From: Zanthoxylum bungeanum
Taxonomy: Eukaryota; Streptophyta; Magnoliopsida; Sapindales; Rutaceae
Direction: 5' to 3'
DNA: 64,000 bases
NCBI GenBank assembly: GCA_019454045.1
Contig: SKCR01018436.1
Location: 62,001 to 126,000, forward strand
Shown here in pieces: positions 9,166 through 32,663 of this stretch (positions are counted from its first letter, which is position 1; each line of letters begins with the position of its first letter). Both the position numbers and the translations under genes were made by a program. The notes beneath the pieces are model-generated. The model did not search any database. It saw only the letters and a program-made list of their open reading frames with translations, and was not told the DNA's origin.

Positions 9166-9475
9166 TGATGAGTGGTAATTATATCACTATTTCCCACTCA
9201 TTTAACCTAATATTTTGTATAGTTTCTCGGGTTTTGTGAATATTTTGAAGTGTTTTGTGTTATTTTGTAGATAAATAAAGTTTCAGGACTCTCTGGAGGT
9301 GATTTGGGCCCAAAACAGTGAAAATTGGAGAAAAGGGTATTTTTGTAATTCTGCTCGTCGCGACTTGGAAGCCTTAGGCATCGCAACGCCTAACATGCAC
9401 CAAGACTTGCTAACGTGCGCCGGGTCCACAAATCAGAATCTGAGAAAAGTTTGACTTTGCTAACGTGCGTCGTGC

Positions 9476-9842
9476 CACGTGTCATCATCACAGCCGATCT
9501 GCTAACATGCACCGTGCCACATGTCATCATCCTACGATGCCGACAGTCGCCATCGCCACATGTCGCCACATGTCACTCCATGTGTCTGCCACGTCATCAT
9601 CCACATCACCAGTTGACCGAGTCAACGTGCCACATCATCGCCACGTCATCATCAGCCAATCACAGGGTGCCACGTGTCGCAATTCTATGGTGCCGACAGT
9701 CACTTTCGCCACATGTTGCCATGTCAGCGCCAATTATTGACTCACTTATCCGCAATTGACACGTGGCAGATAAGAATCTTCATCAGCCAATCACGAGCCG
9801 CCACGTGTCGCAATAATTGAGTCTCAACCACTTTGCCACGTG
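9476..9842 (+). promoter_or_regulatory. Cluster of five CACGTG (G-box/ABRE-type) motifs in LTR D
   Basis: CACGTG occurs at 9476, 9671, 9760, 9802 and 9837, mostly as GCCACGTGTC. Near-copies (CACATGTC, CCACGTCATC) lie between them. In plants this core is bound by bZIP and bHLH factors in light and abscisic-acid responses. The cluster sits 115-480 bases upstream of the TATA box of the same LTR. Activity is inferred. Confidence 0.7.
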
Positions 9843-9955
9843 TCATCTTATCACCTTATCCAGAAACTCACCCGACGAACTAGAAGCTGCCACGTCGACA
9901 AAACGCGCGTCGCGACGCGAGCTCGACATCGCGACGCTGACCCCCTACTGACGCC

Positions 9956-9964
9956 TATAAATAG
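9956..9964 (+). promoter_or_regulatory. TATA box of LTR D
   Basis: TATAAATAG in the context gcctataaatagagctcg, directly after the GC-rich repeats gcgtcgcgacgcgagctc. It matches the placement of TATAAATA in the element E LTRs. Confidence 0.75.
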
Positions 9965-10247
9965 AGCTCGAAATTTCAGTTTCAGATGTACCTTCCTCTC
10001 TGAATTCTCTGATGTAAATATGGAGTTTTCTATCTAGTTTCTTTTAAAATTTTAGTTTTGTAATTAATTTTAATTACGTTATGTAATAATAGTAATTTAC
10101 TTTCTTTACTTTTTACAGTTTTTACTATTTATCATGAGGAGGTAACTTCCCCCTGCTAGAGTGAAAGGTAATTCTTTTACTGTTGCTATTTAGATTAATC
10201 TCCCTTAAATATAATATATTCACTTTTAAAATATTGACTTAAAAAGG

Positions 10248-10441
10248 ATACCCATATATGGTCGGTTGGTAATTCATTTTAATCTGGTTTAAACCTGACT
10301 AATCAAGGATACCGCTAGATTGGTCGGTTGGTAATTAAATTTTCTTACCGCCTATATGGCAGGTTTTTTTTTGTACCGCCTTTATGGCTGGTTGGACTTA
10401 ATTTGACTTAATCAGGTTACCGCCTATATGGCTGGTTGGTA
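10248..10441 (+). repeat. Repeated ggtaccgcc-type units in LTR D
   Basis: Five imperfect units of the pattern taccgcctatatggctggtt(ggtaatt) lie in tandem with AT-rich spacers. Three similar units occur in each element E LTR (16530-16660 and 24357-24492) and two in each element C LTR. Confidence 0.75.
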
Positions 10442-11358
10442 AAATAATCACAAGTTAATATATTATATTAAGGGAGATATCTAAATAGTAATTAGTAAAA
10501 GTTGATCCTTTTACCTTAGCATTTTATTTTATTGTAATTTACTTTTCAGCTTTTACTTTACCGCAATTACTTTTCAGCATTTTTACTTTATGTCTTTTAC
10601 TTTTATCTTTTTACTAGCCCTAGTTATGTGTTGTAACTAAGTTAGTTATATGGGGTTGTGATGAATTCTAATATCACCGGTTTATAAGGGGTTATTTTAT
10701 AGTTTGGGTAATTTAAAGGTTTACTTATTAAGTCTTTAGCTTAATGCTTCTTGTTGTCTGATCACCAATAAGATTGATGTGGTAAATCTAAAATAAACTT
10801 GACAAAGGAATTTTAGGTTTCAGCCTTAGACTTAATAGCCAACGATCTTCCTTGGGGATAGATAACCCTTTAATAGATTTCCTTACAGGATAGACATATA
10901 CCTGTCGGGCGGGGGTAGCCATAATTGGAACTTAAACTTAATGAATCCAGATAATTTGGTTGACATAGACATATGGTTCAATTGGGTTAAACTGGGTATT
11001 TGCGTCTGACCATCGACAGAGGCTTTTGCATAATTTAGTATTCCAGGTTAGTAAACCGATTTATTACACAAACATGAAATAACCACTTCATCTTTTAAAA
11101 GATATTAGAAAGATTCACAACCCTATATAGTTTTTAATATTGAATTTTCTTAAACTACTTTTGTGCAATTTTATTTACTTGTTTTTAAATTTAAAATCTT
11201 CACCATTTCAAATCAATCAATCAACCTGTTAGATACTAGTAATCATTTGACCTCATAAAATTAATAGATTAGGTATTAAGTCCTCGTGGGATCGATACTT
11301 TTTATACTACTTGAACGATACATGCGCTTGCGTTATACGTGTGTGTTTACGCCGGTCA

Positions 11359-12809: not shown

Positions 12810-13808
12810 TTGCTTGATCTTGGAGCCAGTGTCAATTTGCTTCAATTTTCGATTTACCAACAACTTAATATTGGTGAGTTAAAACCAACATCAACTATTC
12901 TTTTACTTGTCGATAGATCACTCAAGGTACCGAAAGGAATTATGGAAGACGTGTTAATACAAGTCGATAAATTCATATGTCATGTGGATTTTATTGTCCT
13001 GGAAATACATGTAGCTGATAGTTATAAGCCAATTCCTGTAATATTTGGTTGCCCATTTTTAGCAACAGTTAATGCTTTAATTAATTGCAGGAATGAAATC
13101 ATGAATTCGCCCTTTGGCAATATGACATAAAAGCTTAATCTTTTTAACATGTGCAAACAACCATACGACGAGGATAATGAAGACGAGAACATAGAATTAA
13201 TTGAACCAATTGTGGATGAATATATTCATGGGAGTTTATCTGATCTTATGGAAATTTGTACAACTAATTTTCTTGAATCAAGTACACAATTATATTCAGA
13301 TATTCCTAATGAATTTTTACTTGATTCTACACAGGTACTGGAAGATGATGGAGAAAAGCAAAATCTTGAGGAGCTAGAAACACTAGAAGAAGAAAAACAA
13401 GAGGAATCACCAAATTTGGAATTGAAGACTTTGCCAGAAGAATTAAAGTATGCATCTATTGGAGATGAACAAACTCACTCAGTGGAAATTTCTTCCTCTC
13501 TCATAAGCGACCAAGAAGAAAAAATACCTCTAGACTGGAGTCATCAAGGTATGGAAGAAACTCTTGCAAAACTCCACAGATATTTTCCTTCTCTCTCCCA
13601 AAATGCTATGATGAAAATTTACAAAGCACACACCGAAAGAATGAGGCTTCTTATGATTCATGGTATTCTTAGTGATATTCGTTGGGTTGTCTTAACACCT
13701 AGTGCCCTAAATCCAACTGGTTTGAGAGTCACTGGCCCAAAGTTCGTTACGATGATTGAAGATGCATCATTATTTAAAAAAAAAATCTATTTTTGTATTT
13801 ATAAATAA
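12810..13808 (+). pseudogene. Element C protease and linker fused to the N-terminal part of a downstream ORF
   Basis: One frame with a single stop (TAA, 13128-13130). The first part is an Athila aspartic protease: LDLGASVNLLQFS with the active-site D-x-GAS pattern, then GCPFLATVNALI. The second part is the acidic linker that in complete elements leads into reverse transcriptase (ELKTLPEELKYA near residue 95 of 13149-13808). Instead of RT it jumps to MEETLAKLHRYFPSLSQNAM, which corresponds to the start of the ORF at 20631 in element E. Protease would mature the gag; here it is probably dead. Confidence 0.8.
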
Positions 13809-14079: not shown

Positions 14080-15338
14080 TGATGAACACTAAAACGTGTA
14101 CATTTATTAAAAGGAAAAATCAATCATTTTACACTTGTAGTTTCATTTATCCTCTTAATTTAGCATAATAATTAAATTTATGTTTTATATATTTTTATTG
14201 TGATTTTTATCTTTTAAATAGGTGAAATAATACTTTGGATGCATATCTAGAAAAATGGACTTGATATTTGGATTTTGGAGGCCAGAAATTTAATATGGTG
14301 TTCTAACAGTGTACAACTTCGAAAATTTCAGCTTTGTGCAATGTTCATATTTTAGGCATAATGTTTTACTCAGATATCGGATTAAGGTGATTCAAGTTCC
14401 AAATGAAAGAAGACGCAAAGATCTACAACTTTGATGTTCATAAGATTTTCGAATTCTGAAGTTTTTAAGGCCGAGATTGATAAAAAATTCCAAAATGTAT
14501 TATATATAATATTTAAAGACAAAAACAAGAAGAAAACAAATAAATGATTCCCACCAATTTTGAAATTTGCAAATTGCAAATTGCATGGGAGAGTGTTGAG
14601 CCCTCTACTATAAATAGAGGTTCTTAGCACCTTAAGAAATCAGCCTGGATTCCATAGTTTTCTCTGAAAATTTATGGAGTTCTTGCTCTTGTGTGTTTTA
14701 TTGTTTTTAAAAGCTTTCTTGTAATTTCTTTTATTTCAGTAATAAAATTATGTGTGTTATTATTAAAATATGAGTAGCTAATTTCTTTTTGCTGGGATAA
14801 AGGGATAAGCTTTTAATATGAAAATTTAGATTAATCTCACTTATATTATAATATATAAATTATAATCTAATGATTAATATTTAATTTGATTCTGGATTAA
14901 TTATTGATAAACTTTGTTACCGTCTACATGATTGTGTTTATTTATTTGGCATAATTGAGTACCTAACTGGAATTGTTATAGAAAAAAATTATCATCGCTT
15001 TCTTGGCTGATTTTATATGTTTTGGCATAATTAATTCCTGAAATAAATTAATTGGGTAATAATGACAATTTATACATTATGAAAATTGATATTTCTAAAT
15101 TTGAAATATTAAAAGTGGATTCCATAACCCCCAGTATTTTATTTTATTCTTACAGTCCAATTAAAAACAAAAAATTCTCCAATCATTTCAAAAAAATCAA
15201 GCCTTTTTATTTTTATTGAAATTTTTATTTTATTTTACTAAATTTATTCCCTGTGGATCGACCACGGTCTTACCGGATTATTTTATCACTTTGACACTCT
15301 TATACTTGGGAGTAAAGAATCACTTTTTGAGCGTGTCA
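14080..15338 (+). repeat. Element C 3' LTR
   Basis: Starts TGATGAACACT and ends GAGCGTGTCA. It contains TATAAATA at 14609-14616. It is about 54 bases shorter than the 5' LTR, partly because the hairpin segment is missing. TSD tctac follows. Confidence 0.9.
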
Positions 15339-15601
15339 TCTACCAAAAGTGATTTTGGGTAGAAACAGTTCATACAACATGCTATGTTGTAAATAGATCT
15401 CCATCAACAGCAAATGATTAGAAGACACTGATGGAGATGTGGAGCGGAAAGCCAACTGATTACTCATCTCTTCACATTTTTTGTTGTCCTATATACGTGA
15501 TGGACAACGCTCAAGAAAGAACAAAGCTAGATCTAAAATCTAGAAAATATATTTTCTTAAGTTATGCTGATGGAGTAAATGAGTATCGCTTGTGGGATCC
15601 C
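15339..15601 (+). pseudogene. Copia element A, integrase 3' part
   Basis: Follows directly from 6592-6803 once element C is set aside. Readable pieces in shifting frames include SSLHIFG-like and DNAQERTKLD, a copia integrase C-terminal region. There are stops and a frame change. It is cut at 15601 by element E, and the reading resumes at 25531-25532 plus 35055. Confidence 0.75.
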
Positions 15602-16193
15602 TGATGAGCAGAAAATATATCAATATTTACCGCCCCTTTTATTTAATATTTTGTTTAGTTTCTCGGGTTTGATGAACGTTTTGGTGTGTTTTAGTTTATT
15701 TTACAGATAAAATAATATTGGGACACAATGAAATCATTTAGGACGAAATGTGGGTCAAATAAGGGTAAAAATTGGACTTGACATATTAATTTTGGAGATT
15801 AGAAATTTGAAAGGGCGTTTTAACGAAGTGCAGTTTTGGAAATTCCAATTTTGCGCATCTGTCGTATTTTGGGCATAAATTTTTACTCTTATCGGATTGA
15901 GCTGATTCAAGTTCAAGATTAAAGAAGACTCAAAGATCTACAACTTTGAAAGACAAAATAATTTCGAATTCTGAAGATTTCATGCCCGAAATTGATGAAC
16001 CATCCAGAAGTGTGTTGTGTGTAATTATTAAAGTCATTTTCAATCATTTTCAAAGCAAAAAAAAAAATAAATTAATAAATAAATAATAAAAATTATCAAA
16101 TCACCACCAAACATGATAAGCAATTAGTGGAGCAATTAGTGGAGCAATTAATAATGGATTTGGTGGATGATTTGATGGAGGCAAAATTTTGCC

Positions 16194-16201
16194 TATAAAT
16201 A
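16194..16201 (+). promoter_or_regulatory. TATA box of element E 5' LTR
   Basis: TATAAATA in gcctataaataccaag; the same motif is at 24024-24031 in the 3' LTR. It is the probable promoter for the element RNA, including the transcript that carries the LOG-family ORF. Confidence 0.7.
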
Positions 16202-16754
16202 CCAAGCCATTTCATTTGTAAATTCATACTTTCTTCTAAGGAATTCCTTAAGAATACTAAGAAGATTGTATATTGTTTGTTTATTTACAGCTTTCAGTAA
16301 TTAATTTCCGCTTTTGCACTTTCTTTTCTTTACTTTTCAGTTTTTACTTTCCGCAATTTACTTTTACGCACAATACTCTTCTTTCTTTAATTTTCAGTTT
16401 TTACTTTTCAGTAATGAGGAGGTAACTCCCCTTTGCTGGGGTAAAAGGTAAAAATTTTATTACTAATATTTAGATTAATCTCCCTTAATTATAATATATA
16501 AACTAGTTAAAACCTGACTTAACGAGGATACTGCCATATTGGTCGGTTGATAATTATTTAAATTGGTTTTAACCTGACTAAACTGGATACCGCCTGATTG
16601 GTCGGTTGGTAATTAATTATTAATTTGACTTAATATGGATACCGCCTATATGGCTGGTTGGTAATTATCATGCAAAGTTAATATATTATATTAAGGGAGA
16701 TATCTAAAATAGAAGTAATAAAAGTGGATCCTTTTACCTCAATATTTTATTTTA

Positions 16755-16945
16755 TTGTACTTTTACTTTATTTACTTTTCAGTAATTTACTTTCAGCATT
16801 TACTTTTCAGCAATTTACTTTCAGCATTTACTTTTCAGTAATTTACTTTCAGCATTTACTTTTCAGCATTTAATTTTCAGTATTTATTTTCAGCATTTAC
16901 TTTCCGTCATTTACTTTTCAGCAATTTACTTTTCAGCATTTTACT
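16755..16945 (+). repeat. Minisatellite in element E LTR
   Basis: Imperfect repeats alternating tttacttttcagcaa and tttactttcagca. A matching, slightly shorter block is at about 24590-24745 in the 3' LTR. The differing copy number shows change since insertion. Confidence 0.8.
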
Positions 16946-17729
16946 TTATGTCTTTTATTTTATTTAAGTTTTTACTAGCTCTAGTTATGTGTCGTAACTA
17001 AGTTAGTTATCTGGGGTTGTGATGAATTCTAATATCACCGGTTTATAAGGGGTTATTTTATAGTTTGGGTAATTTAAAGGTTTACTTATTAAGTCTTAAG
17101 CTTAATGCTTCTTGTTGTCTGATCACCAATAAGATTGATGTGGTAAATCTAAAGTACACTTGACAAAGGAATGTTAGGTTTCAGCATAAGACTTAATAGC
17201 CCACGATCTTCCTTGAGGATAGATAACCCTTTAATATATTTCCTTACAGGATATACATATACCTGTCGGGCGGGGGTAGCCATAATTGGAACTTAAACTT
17301 CATGAATCCAGGTAATTTGGTTGACATAGACATATGGTTCAATGGGGTTATACTGGGTATTTGCGTCTGACAATCGACAGAGGCTTTCGCATAATTTAGT
17401 GTTCCAGGTTAGTAAACTGATTTATTATACAAACATAAAATAACCACTTCATCTTTAAAATGATATTGGAAGAAATCACAACCCTAGATAGTTTCCTAAT
17501 ATTGAATTTTCTTAAACCTACTTTCTCGCAATTTTATTTACATGTTTTTAAATTCAAAATCATCACCATTTCAAATCAATCAATCAACTTATTACATACT
17601 AGTAATCATTTGACTTCATAAAATTAATAGATTAGGTTTTAAGTCCTCGTGGGATCGATACTTTTTATACTACTTGAACGATACGTGCGCTTGCATTATT
17701 CGTGTGTGATTACGCACCGGTCAAGTTTT

Positions 17730-17747
17730 TGGCGCCGTTGCCGGGGA
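17730..17747 (+). other. Element E primer-binding site (Asp-tRNA)
   Basis: tggcgccgttgccgggga, six bases after the LTR end. It is the standard site of Athila elements. Confidence 0.92.
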
Positions 17748-17855
17748 CTTATTTATCTTTCACTATTAGTTTAGAGGTTAGATACATTTACTTGTATCTA
17801 ATTTCTTTTTACTTATTGTTTTTGTTTTATTGTGTTTCAGGTTCTCAGATCCTTC

Positions 17856-19475
17856 ATGAGACGAACCAGAAACTTTGAACTCCGTTCGCTTGACCCAGAA
17901 ATTGAAAGAACCATCAGACAGTTGAGAAGGGAAATGCGAGAAGCCCAAGAAGCTTTAGTCAACATGGAACCTGAACCTTTGGAGATTGCACCACCAATTC
18001 CCATTCGAGAAAGAACCATTCCGATGGTTGAAAAACTCATTTCATGTATTGTACTTCCTCCCTTACCAGCAAATGCAGGTGACATCAGCAGTCGGTTCAG
18101 TTTGGGGGGAATGCAACTGAAGATCCTAATGCCCACATCATCAACTTCCTGCAAGTTTGTGACACTTTCAATTACAACCGAGAAGCTGAAGAAGCAATGA
18201 GACTGTGTATTTTCCTATACACCTTGAAAGACAGAGCTAAAGCTTGGCTACATTCACTACCAGCAGGTTCCATCACAACTTGGAACACTTTAGCCACCAA
18301 ATTTCTTGCAAAGTACTTTCCACCAGCCAGAACTGGAAAGCTGAGGAATGACATCACATCTTTTGTGCAACAAGACTCATAAACTCTCTACGAAGCTTGG
18401 GAAAGATACAAAGATTTGCTCCGGAAATATCCTCACCATGAGATTCCAAAATGGCTTCAAGTCCAAACCTTCTATAATGGACTTTCTGGACTGATGAGAA
18501 CCACAATCGATGCTGCTGCTGGAGGAGCTTTAATGGCAAAAGGAGAAGATCAAGCCTGGGACCTAATCGAAGAAATGGCCAACAACAATTCCTTGTGGCC
18601 AACAGAAATGAGCATGATCCAAAGAATTACAGGAATTTATGAAAGTTGAGCCAATACAGCAGTCAACGCCAAGATGGATCAGATATGCAAATTCATGGAG
18701 ACTTTCAGCACTGGATCCACAAGTTCACCATATGGAGGAGCACCAGAACCAAACCAACTTGAAGAAACGGTGAATTTTGTCAACAATTTCAACAGACAAG
18801 GGAACAATCCATATTCCAACACCTACAACCCAGGGTGGAGGAATCATCCCAATTTTTCATGGAGCAACAATTCAGGACAAAAGAACAATCCACCACCTGG
18901 ATTTCAACAGCAAAACTATCCACCACTAGGATTTCAACAACTGAACAAAGGCCAGGAACATGAAAAAGAACCATAAATGAAAGAATGGATTGCAGAGATG
19001 TTCAAAAAGCAACAAGCAGCATATGATGTTATCTTTCAAAGCCAATCTGCTTCCATCAAAGCACTGGAGAATCAAACCGGACAACTGGCCAATGTTCAAA
19101 GTTACAGACCGCCAGGTAATCTTCCCAGCAACACAGAACCCAATCCAAGGAACCGAGGGAATGAGCAATGTCATGCCATCATGTTAAAAAGCGGTACTGA
19201 AATCAACAAAGATGTTGGAGCCAAAACAACTGCTGAGGAAGTTCCAAAAGAAACAAAGCAACAGATGGAGGAAAAAGAAGCAAAGGAAAAAGAACAGATC
19301 ACTCAACCTCCACATTTTCCTCAGCGTCTTCAGAAAAACAAACTGGACAAGCAGTTTGCTCGTTTCCTGGAGGTGTTCAAAAAACTGCACATCAACATTC
19401 CATTTGCAGAAGCCTTGGAACAAATGCCCAGCTATGTAAAATTCATGAAAGACATTCTTTCACGAAAAACGGAGA
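17856..19475 (+). pseudogene. Element E gag, broken
   Basis: Structural gag. Start ATG at 17856 (MRRTRNFELRSLDPEIER), 16 bases after an acceptor-like tttcag. The capsid core is readable from 18119 (DPNAHIINFLQVCDTFNYN), then LKDRAKAWLHSLPAGSITTW and WERYKDLLRKYPHHEIP. A polar Asn/Gln/Pro-rich region follows (18680-18970), then the conserved pre-protease segment FLEVFKKLHINIPFAEALEQ. Frame changes occur at the G-run near 18103-18109 and near 19470. Stops are TAA 18380, TGA 18647 and TAA 18974. It is Athila type by sequence order. Confidence 0.85.
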
Positions 19476-20492
19476 TTGGGAGATTACGAGACAGTAGCAT
19501 TGACAGAAGAATGCAGCGCCATCATTCAGATGAAGCTTCCCCCAAAGTTGAAAGATCCTGGCAGTTTCACCATTTCTTGCATCATAGGAGAACATAACTT
19601 TGGTAGGGCTTTATGTGATTTAGGTGCAAGTGTTAACTTGATGCCTTTTTCTATTTTCAGGAAATTGTAGATTGGAGAAACAATGACAACTTCAGTCTCT
19701 CTACAACTTGCTGATAGAACGCTCGTATTTCCAAGAGGCGTAGTTGAGGATGTGCTGGTCAAGGTTGACAAATTCATTTTCCCAGCAGATTTTATTATCC
19801 TTGATATGGATGAAGACGCAGATGTTCCAATCATCATCGGGAGACCATTCTTGGCTACAGGTCGAACCATTATTGATGTACAAAAAGGAGAATTAACCAT
19901 GAGGGTACAGGACCAAGAGGTAACATTCAATGTTTTCAAGGCCATGAATTTCCCAGAGGATGAAAAGAAGGAGAAATGTTTCAGACTTGATGTGATACAC
20001 AGTACCATTCAGAACTCCAATGCAATGCAAAGTTCTACTGACAAACTTAAAACATGTCAATTGCTTGTGGAGCCTGAAGATAAATCGTATTTTGCACTGA
20101 AAAAGCCAATTCTTGCACTACAAGCAACAAAAGAGAAAAAGTTCCACCAGCTCAACGAATTGGAGGAATTTCACAATCAGCCTTTTGAGGATGCCAAATT
20201 GTACAAAGAAAAGGCCAAGAAGAGACATGATGAGAAGTTAGTACGCATACAACTGGAACTAGGGCAGAAGGTACTGTTAAACAAATCAAGGGTGAAATTC
20301 TTCCCATGGAAGCCAAAATCACGGTGGTCAGGTCCATTTGTGATCACCAAAGTTTTACCAGATAGAGCCGTTGAGATACATGATCCTGACTCCAACAAAA
20401 CTTTCAAGGTTAAAAACAAGCGTGTTAAGCACTACTGGGGAGAATCGTTTGAGCGACAAAAAGAAAGTGTCACACATTCAGATCCAGCCTAA
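19476..20492 (+). pseudogene. Element E protease joined to integrase C-terminal tail
   Basis: A single frame with one stop (TAG 19668-19670). The aspartic protease begins with ALTEECSAIIQMKLPPKLKD; the active-site region is ALCDLGASVNLMPFS, then DVPIIIGRPFLATGRTIIDV. After about residue 115 of the 19683-20492 part the sequence changes to the C-terminal integrase region: LNELEEFHNQPFEDAKLYKE, then KSRVKFFPWKPKSRWSGPF. The polymerase, RNase H and integrase catalytic core that belong between them are absent. This is a large in-frame internal deletion. Confidence 0.85.
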
Positions 20493-20612
20493 CGATCGAG
20501 AAGTCACGTCTAGCTGACGACGTTAAACTTAGCACTAGCAGGGAGGCAACCCATGCAATTTGTGTATATATTGTGATTTGGTGTGATTTAATTTTGTGTG
20601 TCTAGTTTTTGC

Positions 20613-20614
20613 AG
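20613..20614 (+). promoter_or_regulatory. Candidate splice acceptor before the small basic ORF
   Basis: Pyrimidine-rich tctagtttttgcag ends 16 bases before the ATG at 20631. Not tested; a short acceptor-like string alone is weak evidence. Confidence 0.35.
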
Positions 20615-20630
20615 ATTAAGACATTTAAGG

Positions 20631-21179
20631 ATGGAAGAAGTTCTCGCAAATCTTCACAAGTAATTTCCTTCTCTCCCTCAAAACTCTCTGATGAAAGTCT
20701 ACAAAGCTCGCTTGGAACGAATGAGACTACAGATGATCCATGATATTCCTGATGACATTCGTTGGGTAATTGAAGCACGAGTCTGATTGGCAGGTGAGTC
20801 TTCTGACTCTTTTATTTCACATCTGCCTGGTTTTGGAAGAAGCACTTATGCAAAGAAACGTAGAGCTAAGCAAATGGGTGTTTGTTACAAATATGCACGC
20901 TGGAATTGCAATACTCGTTGTCGTTCTTTAGGAATGGTGTATGATAATCACGAAGATAAAATTAAATTCATTAGAGATGGCTTGAGTAAGGAGCCTGTAG
21001 ATAATATATCTTCGACTCTTGAGACGCATCCCAGTGGATATGTTCATATAGTCATTCGCAAATTACATACACAATTTCAAAAAGAAAGACAACAGTTAAG
21101 TCTTGGGAATCTGACTCAAAAAGACCCTGTTTGCCAATTTATAAGAAAATTGGATGGGAAGCTTGTCCCTGATGCATAG
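20631..21179 (+). pseudogene. Small basic/Cys-rich ORF of element E, broken by two stops
   Basis: A 183-codon frame from ATG 20631 with stops at TAA 20661-20663 and TGA 20784-20786. The N-terminal 50 residues match the segment kept in element C (MEETLAKLHRYFPSLSQ). The second half has a basic patch GRSTYAKKRRAKQ followed directly by C-x11-C-type spacing (CYKYARWNCNTRC), then a polar helix-rich tail to 21179. An Arg/Lys patch of this form followed by a Cys cluster is the layout of the cysteine-rich, nucleic-acid-binding, silencing-suppressor proteins of carlaviruses and relatives. That likeness is recognised by eye, over one segment, and could be chance. It could equally be an undescribed retroelement accessory protein. 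Confidence 0.5.
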
Positions 21180-21278
21180 ACGTCAATCAAGCTGCTACTT
21201 TCCTTGTAAATATTATATCTCTTTGTCTTTTCCTAATAATTATAATTTGTTTTGTTGTTTTCTTTTATTTTCTCCGAC

Positions 21279-21280
21279 AG
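21279..21280 (+). promoter_or_regulatory. Candidate splice acceptor upstream of the LOG-family ORF
   Basis: A 40-base T/C-rich tract ends in tctccgacag. A second candidate, accattttcag, ends at 21377. No ATG occurs between 21281 and the ORF start at 21430, so splicing here would make the LOG-family ATG the first start codon. Confidence 0.4.
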
Positions 21281-21429: not shown

Positions 21430-22083
21430 ATGGAAGCCACTTCAAGAAGACGAGTTGAAAACATCTGTGTGTTTTGCGGTACTAGTGTTGGTGTTAAGCC
21501 ACAATACGTAAAAGCAGCACAGGAATTGGGTCGAGTCTTAGCTGCAAGGAATATGCACTTAGTATATGGCGGAGGCAATCTTGGACTAATGAGGATCGTT
21601 TCAAAGGCCGTACAGGAAGGAGGCAGTCATGTTTTGGGAATCATCCCAAAACCTTTGGCAGAGGCAAATCTTATTGGACCATCAAACAGAGAAGAGCTAA
21701 TTGTGCCAAGTATGTCTGAACGACTGGTAGAAATGATTAACCATGCTGATGCTTTTATTGCTTTGCCAGATGGCTTGGGTATATTGGAGGAAATTTTTAC
21801 AGTATTATCTTGGGCAAACTTGAACATACACCAGAAACCACTTGGACTGTACAACGTTGAAGTATTTTATGATTTTCTTTGTGTGTTTCTTGATGATGCC
21901 CGGAGAAATGGGTTCGTGACAAAACATATGAAAGAACTCCTCTTTACTGCCAGAACTGCTCCGGATCTAATAAACCAACTCTTAGCCTATGAACCACAAG
22001 TTGACCCTATCCTTTCAAAGATAAATTGGTCCGAGGACGATCATGGTAAGATGCGTCAGATTAATCTGGATCTTAACCTTTAA
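21430..22083 (+). CDS. LOG-family protein (cytokinin riboside 5'-monophosphate phosphoribohydrolase-like) captured in element E
   Basis: An intact 217-codon ORF without introns. LOG enzymes release active cytokinin bases from their nucleoside monophosphates in the cytosol. Family marks: ICVFCGTSVGVKPQYVKAA (12-30), LVYGGGNLGLM (44-54), GGSHVLGIIPK (64-74), then the catalytic region. The usual PGGxGTxxE reads PDGLGILEE (113-121): Asp replaces the second residue and Ile replaces Thr, while Glu121 stays. The upstream Arg (R98 in MSERLVEM) stays, but the Lys normally next to it is Leu. Activity is therefore uncertain. The protein ends INLDLNL; LDLNL is an EAR-type repressor motif in other plant proteins. 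Start chosen at 21430: good context (aacATGG) and the family N-terminus. It is the longest undamaged ORF of element E with a known fold. Host LOG genes have several exons, so capture of a spliced mRNA is likely. Confidence 0.9.
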   Translation: MEATSRRRVENICVFCGTSVGVKPQYVKAAQELGRVLAARNMHLVYGGGNLGLMRIVSKAVQEGGSHVLGIIPKPLAEANLIGPSNREELIVPSMSERLVEMINHADAFIALPDGLGILEEIFTVLSWANLNIHQKPLGLYNVEVFYDFLCVFLDDARRNGFVTKHMKELLFTARTAPDLINQLLAYEPQVDPILSKINWSEDDHGKMRQINLDLNL

Positions 22084-23407
22084 TTTCCTGTAGAATTTCA
22101 GCTAACCAGGTATTATCTTCTAAACTCTTCTTCTACTGTTTAAGACATTGGGGACAATGTCTCATTTAGGTTTGGGGGAGGAAATTAGTTGATCAGTACC
22201 TTGTTTTTAGTTTGTGTGTTGTTTTTATTTTTAGTCCAAAATTTTTCGAAAAATACAAAAAAAAATTGAAAAATTTTCAAAAATTACAAAAATATTTTGT
22301 GTTTTTGTGTTTTTATTTTGACTAAAAAGGTGAAATTGGTAAAAGATAGCTGTGTAAGGAATTTCCACTCCTGAGACGTATCTCAAACCATTTTTAAAAC
22401 AAGTTAGTTTTTGTTTATTTCATTTTAAATTATTTAATTTGTAAATTCTCCATAAAACTGACTAAAATGGATCTTCATATGCTCAGTTAGCAGATACTAT
22501 CAACATGCATTGTAACATACAGACATGAGTTAAAATTGAAAAGTTTGTAATATTCAATGTTCTAGTTTAATTGGAGGAAGCATCTAAAAAAGCAATGGAG
22601 TAAAAAAAAAAAAAGTCTGAGATCCGAGTTTTTAAGTCTGTAAGGGTGTTTTAACACCTAGTGCCCTAAAGCCAACTGGTTTGGAGTCACTGGCTCAAAG
22701 CTCGCTACATGGATCAAAGATGCTGCAAAAATATATATATATCTGAAGTCTGAGTAATTAAGTCTGTAGGGGTGTCTTAACACCTGGTGCCCTAAAGCCA
22801 ACTGGTTTGGGAGTCACCGACCCAACACTCGCTACATAGATGGAAGATATTGTATATAAATAGAAAAAAAATCAAAAATCAAAGAAAAAATCAGAAAAAT
22901 TATTCCATTGCTGCAAAAAGATGTGAATTCTGATAAAACTTTAGGACAAAAATATTACTCTCTTATCAACTGCACTTGTGACTGTTGTGGGCAAAAATGA
23001 GTTGATTAATATTTTGTCGACTGTGTATATGGAGAATGGTAAAAGTAATCGGAGAATTTACTTATTCGGTAATTTAGAATGAAACAAAACAACGATTGAC
23101 TTGGATTAGATGTTTCATCTGTTTAGTCACTAACTTATTTATTCTCTTTTCTCTTGTCTTTTTGCTTTTGTGTGCATTAGTTTTATTATATTTTTTACTT
23201 TTGTAAAACGTTTGTGGGTATCGTTGATGTAAGCCCTCACGAGACTATAACTCGTCCACTAGGGACACCTAGTGGTTTAAAGGCTTGTTGCATATGCTAA
23301 ATGCAACTGTGATCCATACGAAAGTGGCTTAGTTTAATTTTAATTGTTTCTTGTATTTTATTTTGTTGTTTTGCTCGAGGACTAGCAAAATGTTAGGTTT
23401 GGGGGTG
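22084..23407 (+). other. Element E 3' non-coding region
   Basis: Contains a hairpin GACATTG-ggga-CAATGTC (22144-22161) followed by aggtttgggggagg, both also typical of the area after pol in Athila. A duplicated block of about 110 bases follows, then degenerate AT-rich sequence. The final tract ttaggtttgggggtg abuts the 3' LTR. No further ORF of recognised type; in Athila an env-like ORF may lie here, but none is readable. Confidence 0.65.
22614..22850 (+). repeat. Direct duplication with a conserved palindrome
   Basis: Two copies (about 22614-22720 and 22749-22850) share GGTGT(T/C)TTAACACC followed by tagtgccctaaagccaactg and ctcgctacat. The first 14 bases form an inverted repeat. A third, single copy lies in element C near 13685-13765. 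Confidence 0.8.
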
Positions 23408-25525
23408 TGATGAGCAGAAAATATATCAATATTTACCGCCCCATTTACTTAATATTTTGTTTAGTTTCTCGGGTTTGATGAACGTTTTGATGTGTTTTAG
23501 TTTATTTTGCAGATAAAATAATATTGGGACACAATGAAATCATTTAGGACAAAATGTGGGTCAAATAAGGGAAAAAATTGGACTTGACATATTAATTTTG
23601 GAGATTGGAAACTTGAAAGGGCGTTTTAACGAAGTGCAGTTTTGGAAATTCCAGTTTTGCGCATCTGTAGTATTTTGGTCATACATTTTTACTCCGATAT
23701 CGGATTGAGCTGATTCAAGTTCCATATTAAAGAAGACTCAAAGATCTACAACTTTGAAAGACAAAATAATTTCTAATTCTGAATATTTCATGCCCGAAAT
23801 TGATGAACCATCCAGAAGTGTGTTGTGTGTAATTATTAAAGTCATTTTCAATCATTTTCAAAGCAAAAAAAAATAAATTAATAAATAAATAATAAAAATT
23901 ATCAAATCACCACCAAACATGATAAGAAATTAGTGGAGCAATTAAAAATGGATTTGGTGGAGCAATTAGTGGAGCAATTAATAATGGATTTGATGGATGA
24001 TTTGATGGAGGCAAAATTTTGCCTATAAATACCAAGTCATTTCATTTGTAAATTCATACTTTCTTCTAAGAAATTCCTTAAGAATACTAAGAAGATTGTA
24101 TCTTGTTTGTTTATTTACAACTTTCAGTAATTAATTTCCGCTTTCGCACTTTCTTTTCTTTACTTTTCAGTTTTTATTTTCCGCAATTTACTTTTACGCA
24201 CAGTACTCTTCTTTCTTTAATTTTCAGTTCTTACTTTACAGTAATGAGGAGGTAACTCCCATTTGCTAGGGTAAAAGGTAAAACTTTTATTACTAATATT
24301 TAGATTAATCTCCCTTAATTATAATATATAAACTAGTTAAAACCTTACTTAACGAGGATACCGCCATATTGGTCGGTTGGTAATTATTTAAATTGGTTTT
24401 AACCTGACTAAACTGGATACCGCCTGAATGGTCGACTGGTAATTAATTATTAATTTGACTTAATATGGATACCGCCTATATGGCTAGTTGGTAATTATCA
24501 TGCAAAGTTAATATATTATATTAAGGGAGATATCTAAAATAGAAGTAATAAAAGTGGATCATTTTACCTCAGCATTTTATTTTATTGTACTTTTACTTTA
24601 TTTACTTTTCAGCAATTTACTTTCAGCATTTACTTTTCAGTAATTTACTTTAAGCATTTACTTTTCAGCATTTAATTTTCAGTATTTAATTTCAGCATTT
24701 ACTTTCCGTCATTTACTTTTCAGCAATTTACTTTTCAGCATTTTACTTTATGTCTTTTATTTTATTTAAGTTTTTACTAGCCCTAGTTATGTGTCGTAAC
24801 TAAGTTAGTTATCTAGGGTTGTGATGAATTCTAATATCACCGGTTTATAAGGGGTTATTTTATAGTTTGGGTAATTTAAAGGTTTACTTATTAAGTCTTA
24901 AGCTTAATGCTTCTTGTTGTCTGATCACTAATAAGATTGATGTGGTAAATCTAAAGTAAACTTGACAAATGAATTTTAGGTTTCAGCCTTAGACTTAATA
25001 GTCCACGATCTTCCTTGAGGATAGATAACCCTTTAATAGATTTCCTTACAAGATAGACAAATACCTGTCGGGCGGGGGTAGCCATAATTGGAACTTAAAC
25101 TTAATGAATCCAGGTAATTTGGTTGACATAGACATATGGTTCAATTGGGTTATACTTGGTATTTGCGTCTGACCATCGATAGAGGCTTTCGCATAATTTA
25201 GTATTTCAGGTTAGTAAACTGATTTATTATACAAACATAAAATAACCACTTTATCTTTAAAATGATATTGGAAGAAATCACAACCCTAGATAGTTTCCTA
25301 ATATTGAATTTTCTTAAACCTACTTTCGCGCAAATTTATTTACATGTTTTTAAATTCAAAATCATCACCATTTCAAATCAATCAATCAACCTGTTAGATA
25401 CTAGTAATCATTTGACCTCATAAAATTAATAGATTAGGTATTAAGTCCTCGTGGGATCGATACTTTTTATACTACTTGAACGATACGTGCGCTTGCGTTA
25501 TTCGCGTGTGATTACGCACCGATCA
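23408..25525 (+). repeat. Element E 3' LTR
   Basis: Starts TGATGAGCAG and ends CACCGATCA; TATAAATA at 24024-24031; followed by TSD atccc. It differs from the 5' LTR by single-base changes and repeat-number changes in the minisatellite. Confidence 0.93.
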
Positions 25526-25532
25526 ATCCCAC

Positions 25533-27937
25533 TGAAGGGGTTTTATTGCGGATATCCGGTAACGCAGAGGAATAATGGAAAATCAAAATTTTTCGATTTC
25601 AAAAATTTTTCTCTATTAATAAATTAAAATTATTTATTTTATTATCCAATAATCAAATTATGAAATAAAACATTATAAATCAAATTTATGTGAATTTACC
25701 GAATTACCCTTATACTTTGTATTTTGTTCATTTTAGTCCGAAATTGTTCAAACTAATTTTGAATGATTCTAAATCATTACTAATATGAATTTAACATATC
25801 ACAAATGTCAAAATACAATTAGCAACAAAATTCCAATTTTAGCCACCAAGGCCGTGAGCCTCACTAGGGGGGATAAGTGCATTTTGCACTTCCATTGTTC
25901 AAAACACATGCAAATGAAATCCAATCAACATAAGATTTAAAATGTATCATATACACCTCCAAATACACCATATAAATGAAAAGCCCCAAATTTGAAAGTG
26001 GTCTCAAACCCTAATTTTTCAATTTCTACAAATTGGACAAATTAGACCAAATTAACAAAATTCAATACTTCAATCATGTTTCTTCAACACCAATCAAGCC
26101 TCATCACAATGAAACAACTATAGAACAATTCTAGGTCATTTAAGAGTGGGTCAATAACTCTAGAATGGCAACAAGGTTCTAAAACCATGAAAAGAATGCT
26201 TACTACATCATTAGTAACATTCTATCAACTTTATACATGCTCAACCCTTTTATCAAACTTTCATCCACCAAAAATACAAAGAATAAAGAATAGAAAAACT
26301 CAAGAACATCACTAGATGAAGCCCACAACAAGATGAACATTTTTCTCTCTAATGGAAGGTTGGAAATACTTACTAAATTCCAAGCTTTTCTTGATTTTTG
26401 CATTTCTTTCTCTCAAGCTTCTTTTTCTTTCTTCAATGGAGTTTTTTGATAAAGTGTATTAGGTTATTAAACCCTAAAATAAAAGAAACAATATATACTC
26501 CATCATTAGGCCTTTGGCCGAATTTTGTATACAAACAATATCAAGATATTTTCCTTTTGTTTCAATTAATTTTAACTTTACAACTTGCTAACTTTAATCA
26601 TGAAACCATTAAATGAATTAAAGTTAGTCAACAATTGCAACTCAAGCCATTAAATTAAATATCATAACCTTAAGATATTTATACTTTAATTAATTTAATC
26701 ATTTAACAATTAAATAATTAATTAATTAATTAAATACAAATATATTAAATATATGTATTATATTTACATTAAAAATTAAATACATATATATATTTATGAT
26801 ATTAGTCAAATATCTCAATTTGACAATTAATTAATGTGTATTTGAATTAATCTAACATTAAATGCAAATACACAAAAATTAAAGAAATGACTATCGGGTC
26901 CCTACACATGTATTTTTCGTTTAACCTTTAAACGACTTAATAAATAATCAGTATTATTTATAAATGTTGCCCTAGTGCTCTACAAGTATGTTTCATTAGT
27001 GAGACTCTCTAGATTCAGGCATATCCGTCACGAAATCCAATTTCGTGTCCATAATTTATCCACCCGTAAATTATGATGAACACAGATAAACTCATTGAAT
27101 CAAACAGGTCGAGGTCATGGCAAATGTATAATTCCTCCGTCACAGGTATCCGGATAAATCCCAGAGATATAGATGTAAACGTCAAATCTCTATAGGGATT
27201 ATCCAGTCGACTATTCTATTAACAATCTCAAAAAGAACATTTAGAACTAACTTTAAAATTGTACCACGGGCCCATGGTTTTTATCTGATTGCTAATCATA
27301 TGGACTACGTATGCTCTGATACAGAGAACTGACGGATCATATCTCGATACACACAGGACACCCTGAGGATCTATCCACACCCAACGAACAGGCGGAGGTC
27401 TGATCTAAAAATATCGTGACGTGACTTCCATCTAAGTGTGGAAGATGTCTCATGCGCCCACAGTGGTACATCAAGTCGAAGAATCACAAGTGCTACCCAA
27501 CCCGATAAGATTCTTATTAACAATGGTGTACCATCCATTAAGAATCTTCGGTGAGTCGTTCAGTGTTTATCCGCCATAAATACCTACACGTCTATACTAG
27601 TCTCCAAGATTTATGGTTCATTGAGAAACCATTGGAATCATATATTCATGTATACGACATGTACCGGTCTCATCGGGTTTACTATACTGACCAAGTAGTG
27701 TAAACCTTGATCAGGAACAGTCTGAGAATGACAACGTCATTATACTACTGAATGTCAGTTGTGACGCTTTTGGAACAGAACCATGACTAGTCATTCTAAG
27801 GTCATTACGTCTTTACCATTTTAAAAGATACATTATATTATATAAACTGCATATATTATTCATAATAATAATGTTTTACAGAAGTATTCATAAAGAAATA
27901 CAACCGGGAATTGGCGCTCTGAGCACCAACCCCAACA
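25533..27937 (-). repeat. Element F 3' LTR
   Basis: About 2.4 kb, closely matching 32664-35049 over its whole length with scattered changes. It contains an aagtgca-ttt-tgcactt hairpin at 25875-25891. The minus-strand sequence just before it (caagtgagagttttt) is a weak polypurine tract. Confidence 0.92.
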
Positions 27938-27953
27938 AAAACTCTCACTTGCT

Positions 27954-28459
27954 CTAGTGCCAATAACGATTGTATCTAATACCCATCGAATCCACGTGTT
28001 TATCAAACAACTTCGGAGGTATGGCCTTCGTCAGTGGGTCTGCTACATTATCTTCACTCGGTACCTTGCACACGACAATATCCCCTCGCGACATAATCTC
28101 TCGAATGATGTGGTACTTGCGTTCCACATGCTTCGACTTCTGATGCGCCATCGGTTCCTTTACTTGCGCAATGGCTCCAGTATTATCACAGTATAACAGA
28201 ATCGCATTCTCGATACTTAGGACAACTCCCAATTCTGTGATAAAGTTCTTTATCCACACAGCCTCTTTTGCAGCTTCAGAAGCTGCAATATATTCCGCCT
28301 CAGTGGTGGAATCTCATGTTGATCCCTGTTTGGAACTCTTCCAACAAACTGCACCTCAGTTAAGGGTAAATACGAATCCAGGTGTAGACTTTCTATCATC
28401 GGGATCTGATTGGAAATCAGAATCCGTATACCCGTTAACTTGCAGTTCGTTTCCTCCAT
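27954..28459 (-). pseudogene. Element F RNase H
   Basis: Two overlapping minus-strand frames. The second contains LYCDNTGAIAQVKEPMAHQK and HVERKYHIIREIMSRGDI, the C-terminal copia RNase H. RNase H removes the RNA strand during cDNA synthesis. There is one frame change near 28255 and a loss in the segment before it. Confidence 0.85.
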
Positions 28460-28465
28460 AAATTA

Positions 28466-29200
28466 TTAACTTATCCTAGTACCTTTAAGATACTTGAGGA
28501 TATGTTTAATGGCCATCCAATGGTCATTACCTGGATTGGACTGATATATGCTAGTTACGCTAACAGCGAAACTGATATCAGGCCTTGTACATAGCATGGC
28601 ATACATTATGCTACCCAAACAGAAAGCATAAGGTTGGTTAGATATTCTAACTTTCTCATCTTTTGTTTCTGGACTCATCTTCTTAGAAAGATGAATCCCA
28701 TGTCTGAACGGTATGTTTGCTGTCTTACAGTTACCAAAATTATACCGTTCTAAGATCTTATCTATGTAGGTTGATTGGGATAACTCAATCAGCCTCATTT
28801 GTCTATCTCTATAGAGTTTTATCCCTAAAACATAGGAAGCTTCTCCCAGGTTGTTCATGGAGAAATTCTTACAGAGGTACGCTTTGACGCTTTGTAACAT
28901 ACCTAAATCATTCCCAATGATTAGGATGTCATCAACATATAGGACTAAAAATACGACCATGCTCCCACTGGCCTTCTGATACACACAGGATTCTTCCGAA
29001 TTCTTGAGAAAACCAGACAATCTAATAATCTCATCGAATCAAAGATTCCAACTTCGTGACGCTTGTTTGCGTCCATAAATGGACTTCTTAAGCTTACATA
29101 CCATACCCAAGTTTTCGCTGGATGTAAAACCTTCCGGCTGTTCCATATAGATTTCTTCATCAAGAAATTCATTTAGAAAAGCCGTTTTGACATCCATTTG
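28466..29200 (-). pseudogene. Element F reverse transcriptase, C-terminal half
   Basis: Contains the catalytic pattern VLYVDDILIIGND and, later, YLKGTR at the end of RT. The piece 28945-29172 carries the segment before it in another frame, with a stop near 29040. Together with 29201-30187 it completes the RT domain. Confidence 0.85.
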
Positions 29201-30187
29201 TCAAATCTCGTAGTCATGATATGCAGCTATAGAAAGCAAAATCCGAATAGACTTAAGCATTGCTACTGGCAAAAAAGTTTCATCGTAGTCGATACCAGGT
29301 CGCTGCGTGTAACCTTTTTCTACCAGTCGGGCCTTGTAAGTTTCAACCTTACCATCAGGCGCGTACTTCCTCTTGTAAACCCATTTACAACCGATAGGAA
29401 CAATTCCTTCGGGAAGCGGAACCAAGTCCCAAACTTGATTCTCATGCATTGAGTCTAACTCGGATTTCATGGCACTTTGCCATTTCATGGAGTCGATGTC
29501 CAACATCGATTCTCTATAAGTGAAAGGATTAGTCTCTTCAACTAAGAAAACATCTAGACTCTTCTCTTGTATCAAATAAATGCGTTCAGGAGGTCTAGAT
29601 ACCCTTTCTGACCTACGGAGTGTGTGTGTTGAAGGTCTTTCATCTACTTGAACTTCAGGTTCCTCCGTTGGTTCGTTGTTTTCAGGTTGGACTTCATCAA
29701 GCTCAACATGTCTATGATTACCACCTTCTGAAAAAAATTCTACTTCTAGAAATTTTGCGAAGCGAGCTACGAACACATTTCGATGCTCGGCATCATAAAA
29801 CATATATCCCCTCGTATTCGAAGGATATCCGAAAAACCTAAACTTTTTCCCTCGAGGCGAAAGCTTATCTTGCTGAGTCACCCTGACATAAGCAGGACAA
29901 CCCCAAACCTTAATGTAACTAAGATTTGGTCTCCTACTGAACCATATCACATACGGTGTCGTAGGAACAGCTTTTGAAGGAATCTTATTCAAAAGATGTG
30001 TAGCTGTTAAAAGAGAGTAGCCCCATAAGTAATAGGGAAAATTTGTGAAACTCAACATCGATCGGACCATATCCAATAAAGTTTGATTTCTCCTCTCAGA
30101 CACTCCATTGTGTTGTGGAGTACCCGGAGGAGTATATTGAGCGAGAATCCCATTCTCCTTCATATAATCCATGAACTCACCACTCAT
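29201..30187 (-). pseudogene. Element F integrase C-terminal part and reverse transcriptase N-terminal part
   Basis: A 328-residue open frame. It begins in the integrase core (TPQHNGVSERRNQTLLDMVR), continues through the integrase tail (KVWGCPAYVRV, FFGYPSNTRGYMFYD) and a Pro/Glu-rich linker, and enters RT (WDLVPLPEGIVPIGCKWVYK). It is the longest undamaged coding piece of element F. Confidence 0.9.
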
Positions 30188-30243
30188 ATATTTGCCGCCT
30201 CGATCGGATCGAAGGAATTTAATATATTGACCAGTTTGTTTTT

Positions 30244-30720
30244 CTACTTCATTTCGGACTCTTTGAACTTTTCAAAGGTTTCCGATTTATGTCGCATCAA
30301 ATAGACATAACCGTACCGTGATAGATCATCGGTAAAGGTAACGAAGTACGAATAACCACTATGAGCAGTCTGACTTAGTGGACCACATACATCAGAATGT
30401 ACGAGTTCCAGTAAGTTAGTGGCGCGGTGTCCAACACCAGAAAATGGGGCTTTGGTCATCTTACCCTGAATACAGGATTCACAAGTTGGATAGGATTCAA
30501 TGGTAAGATCTGGTATCAAACCATTCCTAACCAATTGGGTAAGGCGTTTAACGCCTATGTGACCCAACCGCATATGCCAAAGTTCAGTATTATTAATTAC
30601 ATGTAAACTACGTTTATTAACTCTAGTATTTAAAATATCTTTTGAAGTTTGCAATGTATAATGACCATGCTGGTTGGGACAACAAAGGATCTGAATATTA
30701 CTTTTATCATATAAATACAA
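30244..30720 (-). pseudogene. Element F GAG-pre-integrase and integrase N-terminal part
   Basis: LWHMRLGHIGVKRLTQLVRN with the His of the HHCC zinc finger, then CESCIQGKMTKAPF with its Cys pair. The start of the catalytic core follows: LVHSDVCGPLS with the first Asp, then FVTFTDDLSRYGYVY with the second. Confidence 0.9.
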
Positions 30721-30750
30721 AGAATAGTTATTAATATTAATACGAAAGCC

Positions 30751-31335
30751 TTATGTATCCAATACAAAAAGAGATATAATATTAGCTACACATCCTGGTA
30801 CAAAATGACACTCATTTAACAAAAGTGTCCCATTCGGCAATGAGATCTCGCATACTCCCACTACAACTGCATCCAGAGAGTCTCCACTCCCGAATCGCAA
30901 ATGCATCTCTCCAGGCTTCAGTCTTCTACTTTCCTTCAGCACCTGCAACGAATTGCAAATGTGAATGGGACAAGCAGAATCTAAAATCCAGTTGGATGTA
31001 ACGGCTTCACAAGCCAAAGATAAATCAATAACTGGAAAAATAAATGACCCATATGTAGATGCTCTCTCCCTCCTCAGCTGGGCTATGTAGTCAGGACAAT
31101 TCCTTTTCCAGTGCCCGACTTTGCTGCAGTGATGGCACTTGTCTTCAAAAGCCCTTTTGGGCTTTGCTATCTTTGCCTGTGGTTGAGGACCGAGACCCTT
31201 CTTCATCTTCTTCACTTTCTTCTTATTTCCCTTTGACCAAGTCTGGGAAGAAGCAGAAAGTGAAGTAGGTCTAGGAGGGCGAGTCGGTACTCCCTTCTTG
31301 AGGTCATCTTCCGCCGTGAGCAACATCCGATACAT
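30751..31335 (-). pseudogene. Element F gag zinc knuckle and protease
   Basis: CHHCSKVGHWKRNC is a CCHC knuckle. The protease follows at NWILDSACPIHIC, where the usual DSGAS active site reads DSACP, a likely inactivating change. A frame change separates it from the gag part at 31377. Confidence 0.85.
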
Positions 31336-31376
31336 CTCTTAGTAGGTACAGATAATCCCGTTCATGTTGAAGTACA

Positions 31377-31901
31377 TCACGAACTGGTGATAAGAAGCTG
31401 GGAGAGAACCAAAAATGACACTCTACCGAGAATGTCATTCAGAATGAGATTATGTTGCCTCAATTGATCGATCAAATCGATCATCTGAAGAACATGTGGG
31501 CTAATAGCTTGCCCCTCATCCAATCGCGCATGGAACAGTTCCATTGCGACCTTATAAACAACAACTTGTTCTTGGTTCTCAAACGATTGTCTTAATCGTG
31601 TCATCATAGTATGAGCATCTGACATGCAATAATACTGTTTCTTGAGTCCCGATGAAAGCGAACTTAAGATGTATGATTTAACCCTTAAATCATCATCCTT
31701 CCAAGCTTGGAAGACTTCGCGTTCTTCTGGTGTAGCGTCCTCTGCCAGAACAAGAGGCAGTGGACCCTCAAGAATATATCCCAACCTCTCGGAATCGAGG
31801 ACAATCCTCAAATCTAGATCCCAATCGGCGAAGTTATCAGCGCCTTTTAGTTTGTTTGCATCAAGCATACGCGCAAACTGATTTGTGGATGGTGCCGCCA
31901 T
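31377..31901 (-). pseudogene. Element F gag capsid region
   Basis: Start taken at the Met at 31901 (MAAPSTNQFARMLDANKLKG), the normal beginning of this gag type; a Met further upstream (31958) lies in the leader. It then reads FADWDLDLRIVLDSERLGYI and later VVYKVAMELFHARLDEGQAI. This is a typical copia gag (UBN2-type). It loses frame near 31380. Confidence 0.85.
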
Positions 31902-32099
31902 CGCAAATCTATCATATAGATCACGAAAAACGGTTAGCAGAAATTTAAGCGGTTTCATATAATATCTAAAGCATTAACTAGATCATGGATTTTTAATCTA
32001 AAAATGCCTCTCCCACTAAATAATGCAATACTGTAATCCTCAAACAGAATACAAAGATTTAATAATTAAATTAAATACAAATAGTGAAATATGGATCCC

Positions 32100-32425
32100 G
32101 TGAATATATTTCAGCTCACAGCAGATGCATGGTCTCGCCTACATATATTCATCAGGTAGACAACTCATTTGTCAATCACTCACTAGTGACTCTTGGGTTT
32201 CCGGTCCTTGTCGTTTCTCGTTATCGCTGCTAAGGCAGGCCCACAAGGAGACGTACCAAGGTTAAACTCGTCAATGATAAACTCAAGTTAATTGTGTAAC
32301 CCTGACAGCTAGGGCACGTTCAGGATTGCGCTTTCGCTTGAATTTATCTAGTATCTGATATACATCCGGTATAAATAAATCTCTATCGGCTACACCCTCA
32401 CAGCAGAGGCACGGTCTCGGATGTA
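32100..32425 (-). repeat. Repeated motif in element F 5' leader
   Basis: Four minus-strand units of the form (g)accatgc...ctgctgtgag or cgtgccctagctgtcag, at about 32114-32138, 32219-32242, 32301-32325 and 32398-32421. The leader of element H (58598-58894) carries four corresponding units. Confidence 0.65.
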
Positions 32426-32648
32426 GTCACGGAGAAATATTTATAAACCGTATTGACAAGACGGACCACATAACATGCATCAAATACATAATTACATTTA
32501 AACCTTATTAATTAGGGATTTTACGCTAAGTGTCATACACCCTAAATCTAATCAAATTAGATTATAACATGCATGTATAAAGTCAAGAAAACATGATTAA
32601 ACATTGAATTAAAGGGCTAATCATATTAGGGGGCCTAGAATCAGACTC

Positions 32649-32660
32649 GCTCTGATACCA
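32649..32660 (-). other. Element F primer-binding site (initiator Met-tRNA)
   Basis: The minus strand reads tggtatcagagc three bases after the 5' LTR end. This is the usual copia primer site. Confidence 0.92.
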
Positions 32661-32663
32661 TTT

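Follow-up and report, generated by a model that had tools for sequence, protein, structure and literature searches.

A LOG-family open reading frame (ORF) in Zanthoxylum bungeanum lies within an LTR retrotransposon, where the order gag, protease, integrase C-terminus, a carlavirus-like nucleic-acid-binding-protein (NABP) ORF and LOG runs between the two LTRs. This form, which has no reverse transcriptase (RT), has multiplied; the LOG family is constrained; and the copy studied here has lost signature residues. LOG is the gene for the last step in activating the growth hormone cytokinin. The reading that we favor, with a probability of roughly 0.55, is that this ORF is a decaying copy of a LOG that has long been kept under selection as cargo of an Athila-like (OTA) Ty3/gypsy lineage, to which we infer a benefit through the hormone.

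Results

Anatomy of the carrier element

The window, that is, the whole stretch of 64,000 nucleotides that was analyzed, comprises bases 62001-126000 of contig C16951 (SKCR01018436.1) in the 3.96-Gb, 51,709-contig Z. bungeanum genome. Element E within it (Table 1) is a non-autonomous LTR retrotransposon, with an LTR pair, a TSD and no RT, that multiplied after the loss. A first-pass annotation, made from the letters alone, had described its LTRs, TSD, primer binding site and a gag with three stops and two frame changes, and all of these were recovered; its layout of the element was sound, except that it had overlooked the NABP ORF. RT, RNase H and the integrase core were not found when the three forward frames of element E were read, and a Pfam scan of the window ORFs returned no RT domain. 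The protease region holds one further stop. The primer binding site is presumably complementary to tRNA-Asp. The TSD is 5 bp long, as in 93.4% of plant LTR elements according to PMC6317226. The Athila ORF-1 (PF03078) was absent among the 7 window ORFs scanned; PMC6317226 gives it as present in 16% of Athila elements, and thus not obligatory.

Table 1. Features of element E, in window coordinates
Feature	Position	Strand	Remarks
5' LTR	15602..17723	+	TSD copy ATCCC at 15597-15601
Primer binding site TGGCGCCGTTGCCGGGGA	17730..17747	+	sequence inspection
gag remnant	17832..19597	+	three stops, two frame changes, from frame reading
Protease region joined in frame to integrase C-terminus at ~20049	19597..20492	+	
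NABP ORF (carlavirus-like)	20631..21179	+	two stops, zinc-motif cysteine lost
LOG-family ORF, 217 codons	21430..22083	+	frame open; PGGxGTxxE altered, C-terminal LxLxL kept
Hairpin-like block and internal polypurine-like tract, 3' of LOG	22144..22182	+	
Polypurine-like (G-rich) tract directly 5' of 3' LTR	23395..23407	+	
3' LTR	23408..25525	+	TSD copy ATCCC at 25526-25530

The two LTRs of element E differ at 74 of 2093 sites (K2P 0.036), which corresponds to about 1.4 My or 2.6 My at substitution rates of 1.3e-8 and 7e-9 per site and year, respectively. The element may by now be silenced. Pyrimidine-rich stretches ending in CAG, resembling splice acceptors, occur 5' of NABP (20588-20614) and 5' of LOG (21220-21280).

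Other repeats surround element E. Element D has an LTR pair at 6804-8116 and 14080-15338 (89-90% identical in two matched pieces) and a PBS-like site at 8123; the first 47 NABP residues are matched at 13551-13691, after which the homology jumps to the 3' region, and there is no LOG. A solo-like LTR inside element D (9166-11352) is 92% identical to the element E LTR over its 3' part and has AGAAC on both sides. Directly after element E, on the minus strand (25533-35046), long ORFs that on reading look copia-like are enclosed by two LTR-like repeats, 25533-27934 and 32664-35046, which are 95.5% identical. The window also contains an inverted repeat pair (41266-42037 and 46499-47274, 75% identity) and a tandem-like array at 3710-4771 with many overlapping self matches at 72-77%.

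The window LOG is an open but altered frame

The ORF matches Pfam PF03641 at 7.4e-31, its best solved relative is At2g37210 (6.8e-55), and these matches place it in the LOG family. It had been called intact: the open frame and the family assignment stand, but PGGxGTxxE retains only four of its six fixed residues, the other two being replaced, and GGGxxGLMG has changed too. Relative to its five nearest relatives, the window LOG carries 12 derived replacements, 8 of which fit C-to-T or G-to-A steps, as expected of cytosine deamination; of the 1427 possible single-step origins, 232 are of this kind. An earlier count of 3 window-private changes, none of the deamination type, had required absence in all relatives, which was too strict because many relatives have decayed too, and it was replaced by the present one. 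About 0.26-0.35 of such copies would keep an open LOG frame by chance without selection. Given the replaced signature residues, the deamination-type changes and this chance of about 0.3, the window copy is probably a dead enzyme. Selection on the ORF, which the first-pass annotation had offered as one meaning of the open frame, finds support in the family (dN/dS 0.24, see below) and not in the frame of this copy.

LOG copies multiplied with the element

A search of the genome with the LOG DNA gave 40 scored places (hereafter window-type, the window included), each covering 654/654 bases, the other 39 at 94-95% identity. A second search with a canonical Arabidopsis-type LOG gave 150 scored places, 133 of which list no stop; some of the listed stops fall outside the LOG frame as later read. 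Since the two lists have no contig in common, the genome holds at least 190 LOG loci, the scored places being a part of 8,700 and 58,158 first-look candidates, respectively. We considered the 150 matches as a source of the host LOG donor, and none is intron-split, because each spans nearly the whole query in one stretch.

NABP sequence lies upstream of LOG in 35 of the 40 window-type places, with one stop-free frame in 4; at 11 of the 40 places the LOG frame is not continuous, and another 8 contain stops. We then compared about 1.5 kb upstream of LOG in 27 other loci (L003-L009, L049-L068). The protease-integrase deletion junction of the window was crossed unbroken in 8 of them, 4 started exactly at the junction (73-75% identity) and had a longer integrase, 1 matched the protease side only, and 14 had no match there. 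As the junction is common to 8 other loci, the RT-less form has multiplied, presumably with proteins supplied in trans. These results support the view that a non-autonomous Athila-like element carries LOG as its cargo.

Among 20 loci from the canonical-LOG search, 12 lacked an NABP match (E<=1e-8) in the 3.6 kb examined for each. The one LOG-bearing element of this kind read from LTR to LTR, on contig C20174 and covered by two overlapping pieces, begins with an LTR (118859-120769) and a PBS-like site; its LOG, with an open frame, starts at 122681 and the next LTR at 124508. No gag, pol or NABP was found in it when gag, protease-integrase, integrase and NABP sequences were used in tblastn, or when the whole internal region of the window was used in blastn. 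It matches that region only in the leader, a 62-base piece 5' of NABP, and LOG with its flanks. Its main breakpoints near LOG are common to L052 and L053, and L061, another NABP-less locus, gave a weak gag match. Two NABP-less copies have an acidic ORF 5' of LOG (L063:264-572 and L052:2884-3285), for which Pfam returned no family at E<=0.01.

A carlavirus-like neighbor and a relative without LOG

The window NABP frame matches PF01623 at 3.8e-5, and 19 of 22 NABP rows match PF01623, and 19 of 22 PF05515, at E<=1e-3. We found 276 NABP relatives; the 120 listed are mostly of 182 residues and include Populus, Xanthoceras, Acer, Parasponia, Rhamnella and Orobanche, and 100 of them keep a four-cysteine motif, C-x2-C-x4-C-x3-C, that the window copy lacks. 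Viral contigs scanned with NABP, LOG and their alignments yielded no relative. An AlphaFold model of NABP (mean pLDDT 62.8, pTM 0.30) was too poor for use.

Contig L001 (DAIEQH010000041.1), which starts inside RNase H, encodes RNase H, H2C2 and rve domains, followed by an open NABP, in a stretch translated with X in place of one stop. Aligned with the window, the integrase end reaches 41%. L001 thus has the OTA/Athila order of RNase H, integrase and 3' extra ORF; archaeal RNase H (aRH) is the marker of Tat within OTA. After NABP comes a block resembling that found 3' of LOG in the window, and the LOG query gave no match to the contig. NABP after integrase therefore exists without LOG in this lineage, and LOG would be an extra piece inserted between NABP and the post-LOG block. 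The contig is filed in a Nomurabacteria metagenome-assembled genome; it is probably a stray retroelement contig contaminating a bacterial reference genome and may be of plant origin.

Selection on LOG

In 28 one-frame window-type copies, LOG dN/dS was 0.51 (bootstrap 0.42-0.62), and between the window and the other window-type copies it was 0.62. Neutral simulation gave 0.64-0.94 over the settings tried and 0.70-0.78 at kappa 4, which is close to the value implied by the observed ts/tv of 1.8. A value of 0.18 from set B (19 copies) was biased because those copies had been chosen for their likeness to canonical LOG, and we replaced it with one from a set chosen independently of LOG. Using the 3' part of the C20174 element as query, we scored 40 places and read the LOG region at all 18 other places whose match began at query base 1. 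LOG was present at 18/18 of these places chosen by non-LOG DNA (3' region and LOG region read), in one piece in 12 (5 stop-free, 7 with stops) and broken in 6. For 11 of the 12 one-piece copies, stop-bearing ones included, dN/dS was 0.24 (0.19-0.28); one copy was dropped for a gap, four were read to residue 188 and one from 91, and one (contig C39) is also in the 150-place list. The first-pass annotation had held that several copies with common flanks and a low dN/dS would support a functional cargo. The 40 window-type places, 35 with NABP, supply the copies and flanks, and dN/dS is low at 0.24 in the LOG-independent set and higher, at 0.51, in the window-type copies.

Over the 1081 pairs of 47 copies (window-type plus set B), dN rose from 0.033 to 0.078 while dS rose from 0.017 to 0.274, which reads as the pattern of neutral decay after insertion atop lineage constraint. 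In set B, the median LOG dS (0.18) is higher than 3'-flank divergence (0.116) but not higher than 5'-flank divergence (0.18); dN/dS may thus exaggerate constraint somewhat. NABP had a dN/dS of 0.41 in 21 copies (18 window-type, 3 set B), versus 0.49 for LOG in the 14 usable ones; LOG is therefore not special, being no better constrained than NABP in those copies.

The signature PGGxGTxxE is kept in 60 of 81 LOG relatives and in 20/20 canonical rows, and GGGxxGLMG in 55 of the 81. Only 4 of 187 same-spacing placements, the motif's own included, do as well as the signature motif. Purifying selection on the LOG cargo at the level of the family is thus supported by sequence comparison.

History of the LOG cargo

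We found 430 LOG relatives, of which 120 were listed, and built a tree of 103 rows with the window, 81 listed relatives (195-260 residues) and 19 canonical LOGs, to which a LOG8 piece and one bacterial LOG were added. In this tree the window fell into a single group with the 81 relatives (99/94), separate from the 20 rows of canonical plant LOGs (100/97), a narrow canonical sampling in which 19 were hand-picked from 120; the bacterial LOG fell on the canonical side. Named members of the window clade, known here as proteins, come from Populus, Xanthoceras, Acer, Citrus, Reevesia and Orobanche. A recent capture of LOG, which the first-pass annotation had named as the other possibility, is not supported, given these relatives in several eudicots. 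LxLxL occurs within the last 12 residues in 53/81 relatives versus 0/20 canonical rows (one without its C-terminus), and in the same genome in 25/28 window-type and 17/19 set B copies.

The annotation had also known of no described LOG capture. According to PMC9289625, a YgdH (LOG) domain is present in Ty3/gypsy consensus elements of Citrus sinensis and C. clementina and, with a filter off, of Populus trichocarpa, a result presented there as agreeing with Steinbauerova et al. 2011. More generally, PMC7264820, PMC6317226 and PMC11963269 describe the additional ORFs that occur in LTR elements of plants. A literature search, with most subscription journals outside its coverage, returned nothing on NABP in plant LTR elements or on whether their LOG is under selection. 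Gypsy elements of plants were thus already known to carry LOG; new here are the selection on LOG, the carrier without detectable gag and pol, and the carlavirus-like neighbor.

Discussion

How could LOG serve the element? RNA driven by the LTR would yield LOG from its 3' part, via splicing or a shorter transcript, and, in cells with an active LTR, LOG would convert cytokinin riboside monophosphate to the free hormone. Prolonged division or a prolonged meristem state could then leave more cells and germ-line descendants with new copies, movement proteins being supplied in trans by an autonomous relative. Retention of LOG where all other functions are borrowed suggests a benefit to the expressing cell or copy rather than a shared replication protein. 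The element may thus be exploiting a hormone enzyme of its host. Our tentative proposal, which we hold at somewhat less than even odds, is that LOG is a selfish cargo, found beside the virus-like NABP and kept even without gag, pol and NABP, and that cytokinin multiplies the carrying cell lineage together with its copy. If so, this would be a plant parallel to the animal retroviruses that carry growth-promoting host genes.

The cargo might instead be selected for something other than cytokinin, either for another nucleotide (pools or signaling) or as a co-repressor or anti-silencing partner of NABP that acts through LxLxL. The LxLxL tail, which may be an EAR motif, is frequent in the relatives (53/81) and genome copies (25/28 and 17/19) and absent from the canonical rows (0/20), and LOG travels with a carlavirus-like NABP; but PGGxGTxxE and GGGxxGLMG each persist in the majority of the relatives, as expected under selection for the usual reaction, and we regard this possibility as unlikely, if far from negligible. 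Partial domestication, in which some copies now serve the plant and raise the measured constraint, would fit a Populus clade member annotated as LOGL10 and the 133 of 150 scored places that list no stop. As the constraint is spread across scattered copies and not one or two loci, we find this improbable.

Two further explanations leave LOG without a selected role in the element. Had a single LOG been captured and copied along without use, the lost signature residues of the window, its chance-compatible open frame (0.26-0.35) and the dN/dS of 0.62 against window-type copies would be accounted for. Such a neutral passenger would not explain a dN/dS of 0.24 in copies chosen regardless of LOG, the retention of the signature motif among relatives, or a LOG that persists in an element where gag, pol and NABP went undetected, and has in our judgment only a slim chance of being correct. 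LOG genes are also ordinary plant genes, so that a host locus with unrelated retroelement insertions on either side, named in the first-pass annotation as the case that would refute its reading, deserves mention. Yet the window LOG sits inside a single LTR pair with a TSD, its whole ORF is matched at 39 other places, NABP lies upstream in 35/40, and the tree sets it apart from the sampled canonical plant LOGs; this leaves an ordinary host locus with practically no likelihood. A selected cargo of the Athila-like lineage, of which the window holds a decaying copy, is the reading that we favor.

The use of extra ORFs in plant LTR elements is mostly unknown. Here the cargo belongs to a recognizable hormone-activating enzyme family and is selected over many insertions, also in an element without detectable replication genes, so that, the substrate and phenotype being known, one can ask by experiment what a plant retrotransposon gains from its cargo. 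Through its carlavirus-like neighbor, one lineage combines host-like and RNA-virus-like genes. Since this genome alone holds at least 190 such loci, some of the genes counted as LOG in plant annotations may be copies that belong to retroelements.

Like the window, the YgdH Ty3/gypsy elements of Citrus and Populus carry a LOG-family domain as cargo, and Populus and Citrus proteins fall into the window LOG clade. To that report, which in its section on the domain (PMC9289625, section 12) concerns presence only, the present analysis adds the NABP partner, the shared RT-less form, the form without gag and pol, dN/dS and a LOG-less relative. Canonical plant LOGs (Arabidopsis At2g37210, At5g11950) share with the element LOG their family, a similar length and, in most relatives, the signature motifs; they are 45% identical to the window copy and 47-50% to the 150 scored places. 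Unlike them, the element LOG forms a separate clade, has an LxLxL tail and no introns, and is multicopy inside LTR elements. The element NABP resembles carlavirus NABP (PF01623, PF05515) in the profile matches of 19/22 rows each, whereas it is encoded by a retroelement 3' of integrase, with C-x2-C-x4-C-x3-C in 100 of the 120 listed rows. The m6A demethylase-like domain of orchid Ty3/gypsy elements, as described in PMC9289625, is likewise a host-type enzyme carried as an extra domain; the orchid elements carry an RNA demethylase, whereas the LOG elements carry a member of a hormone-activating enzyme family.
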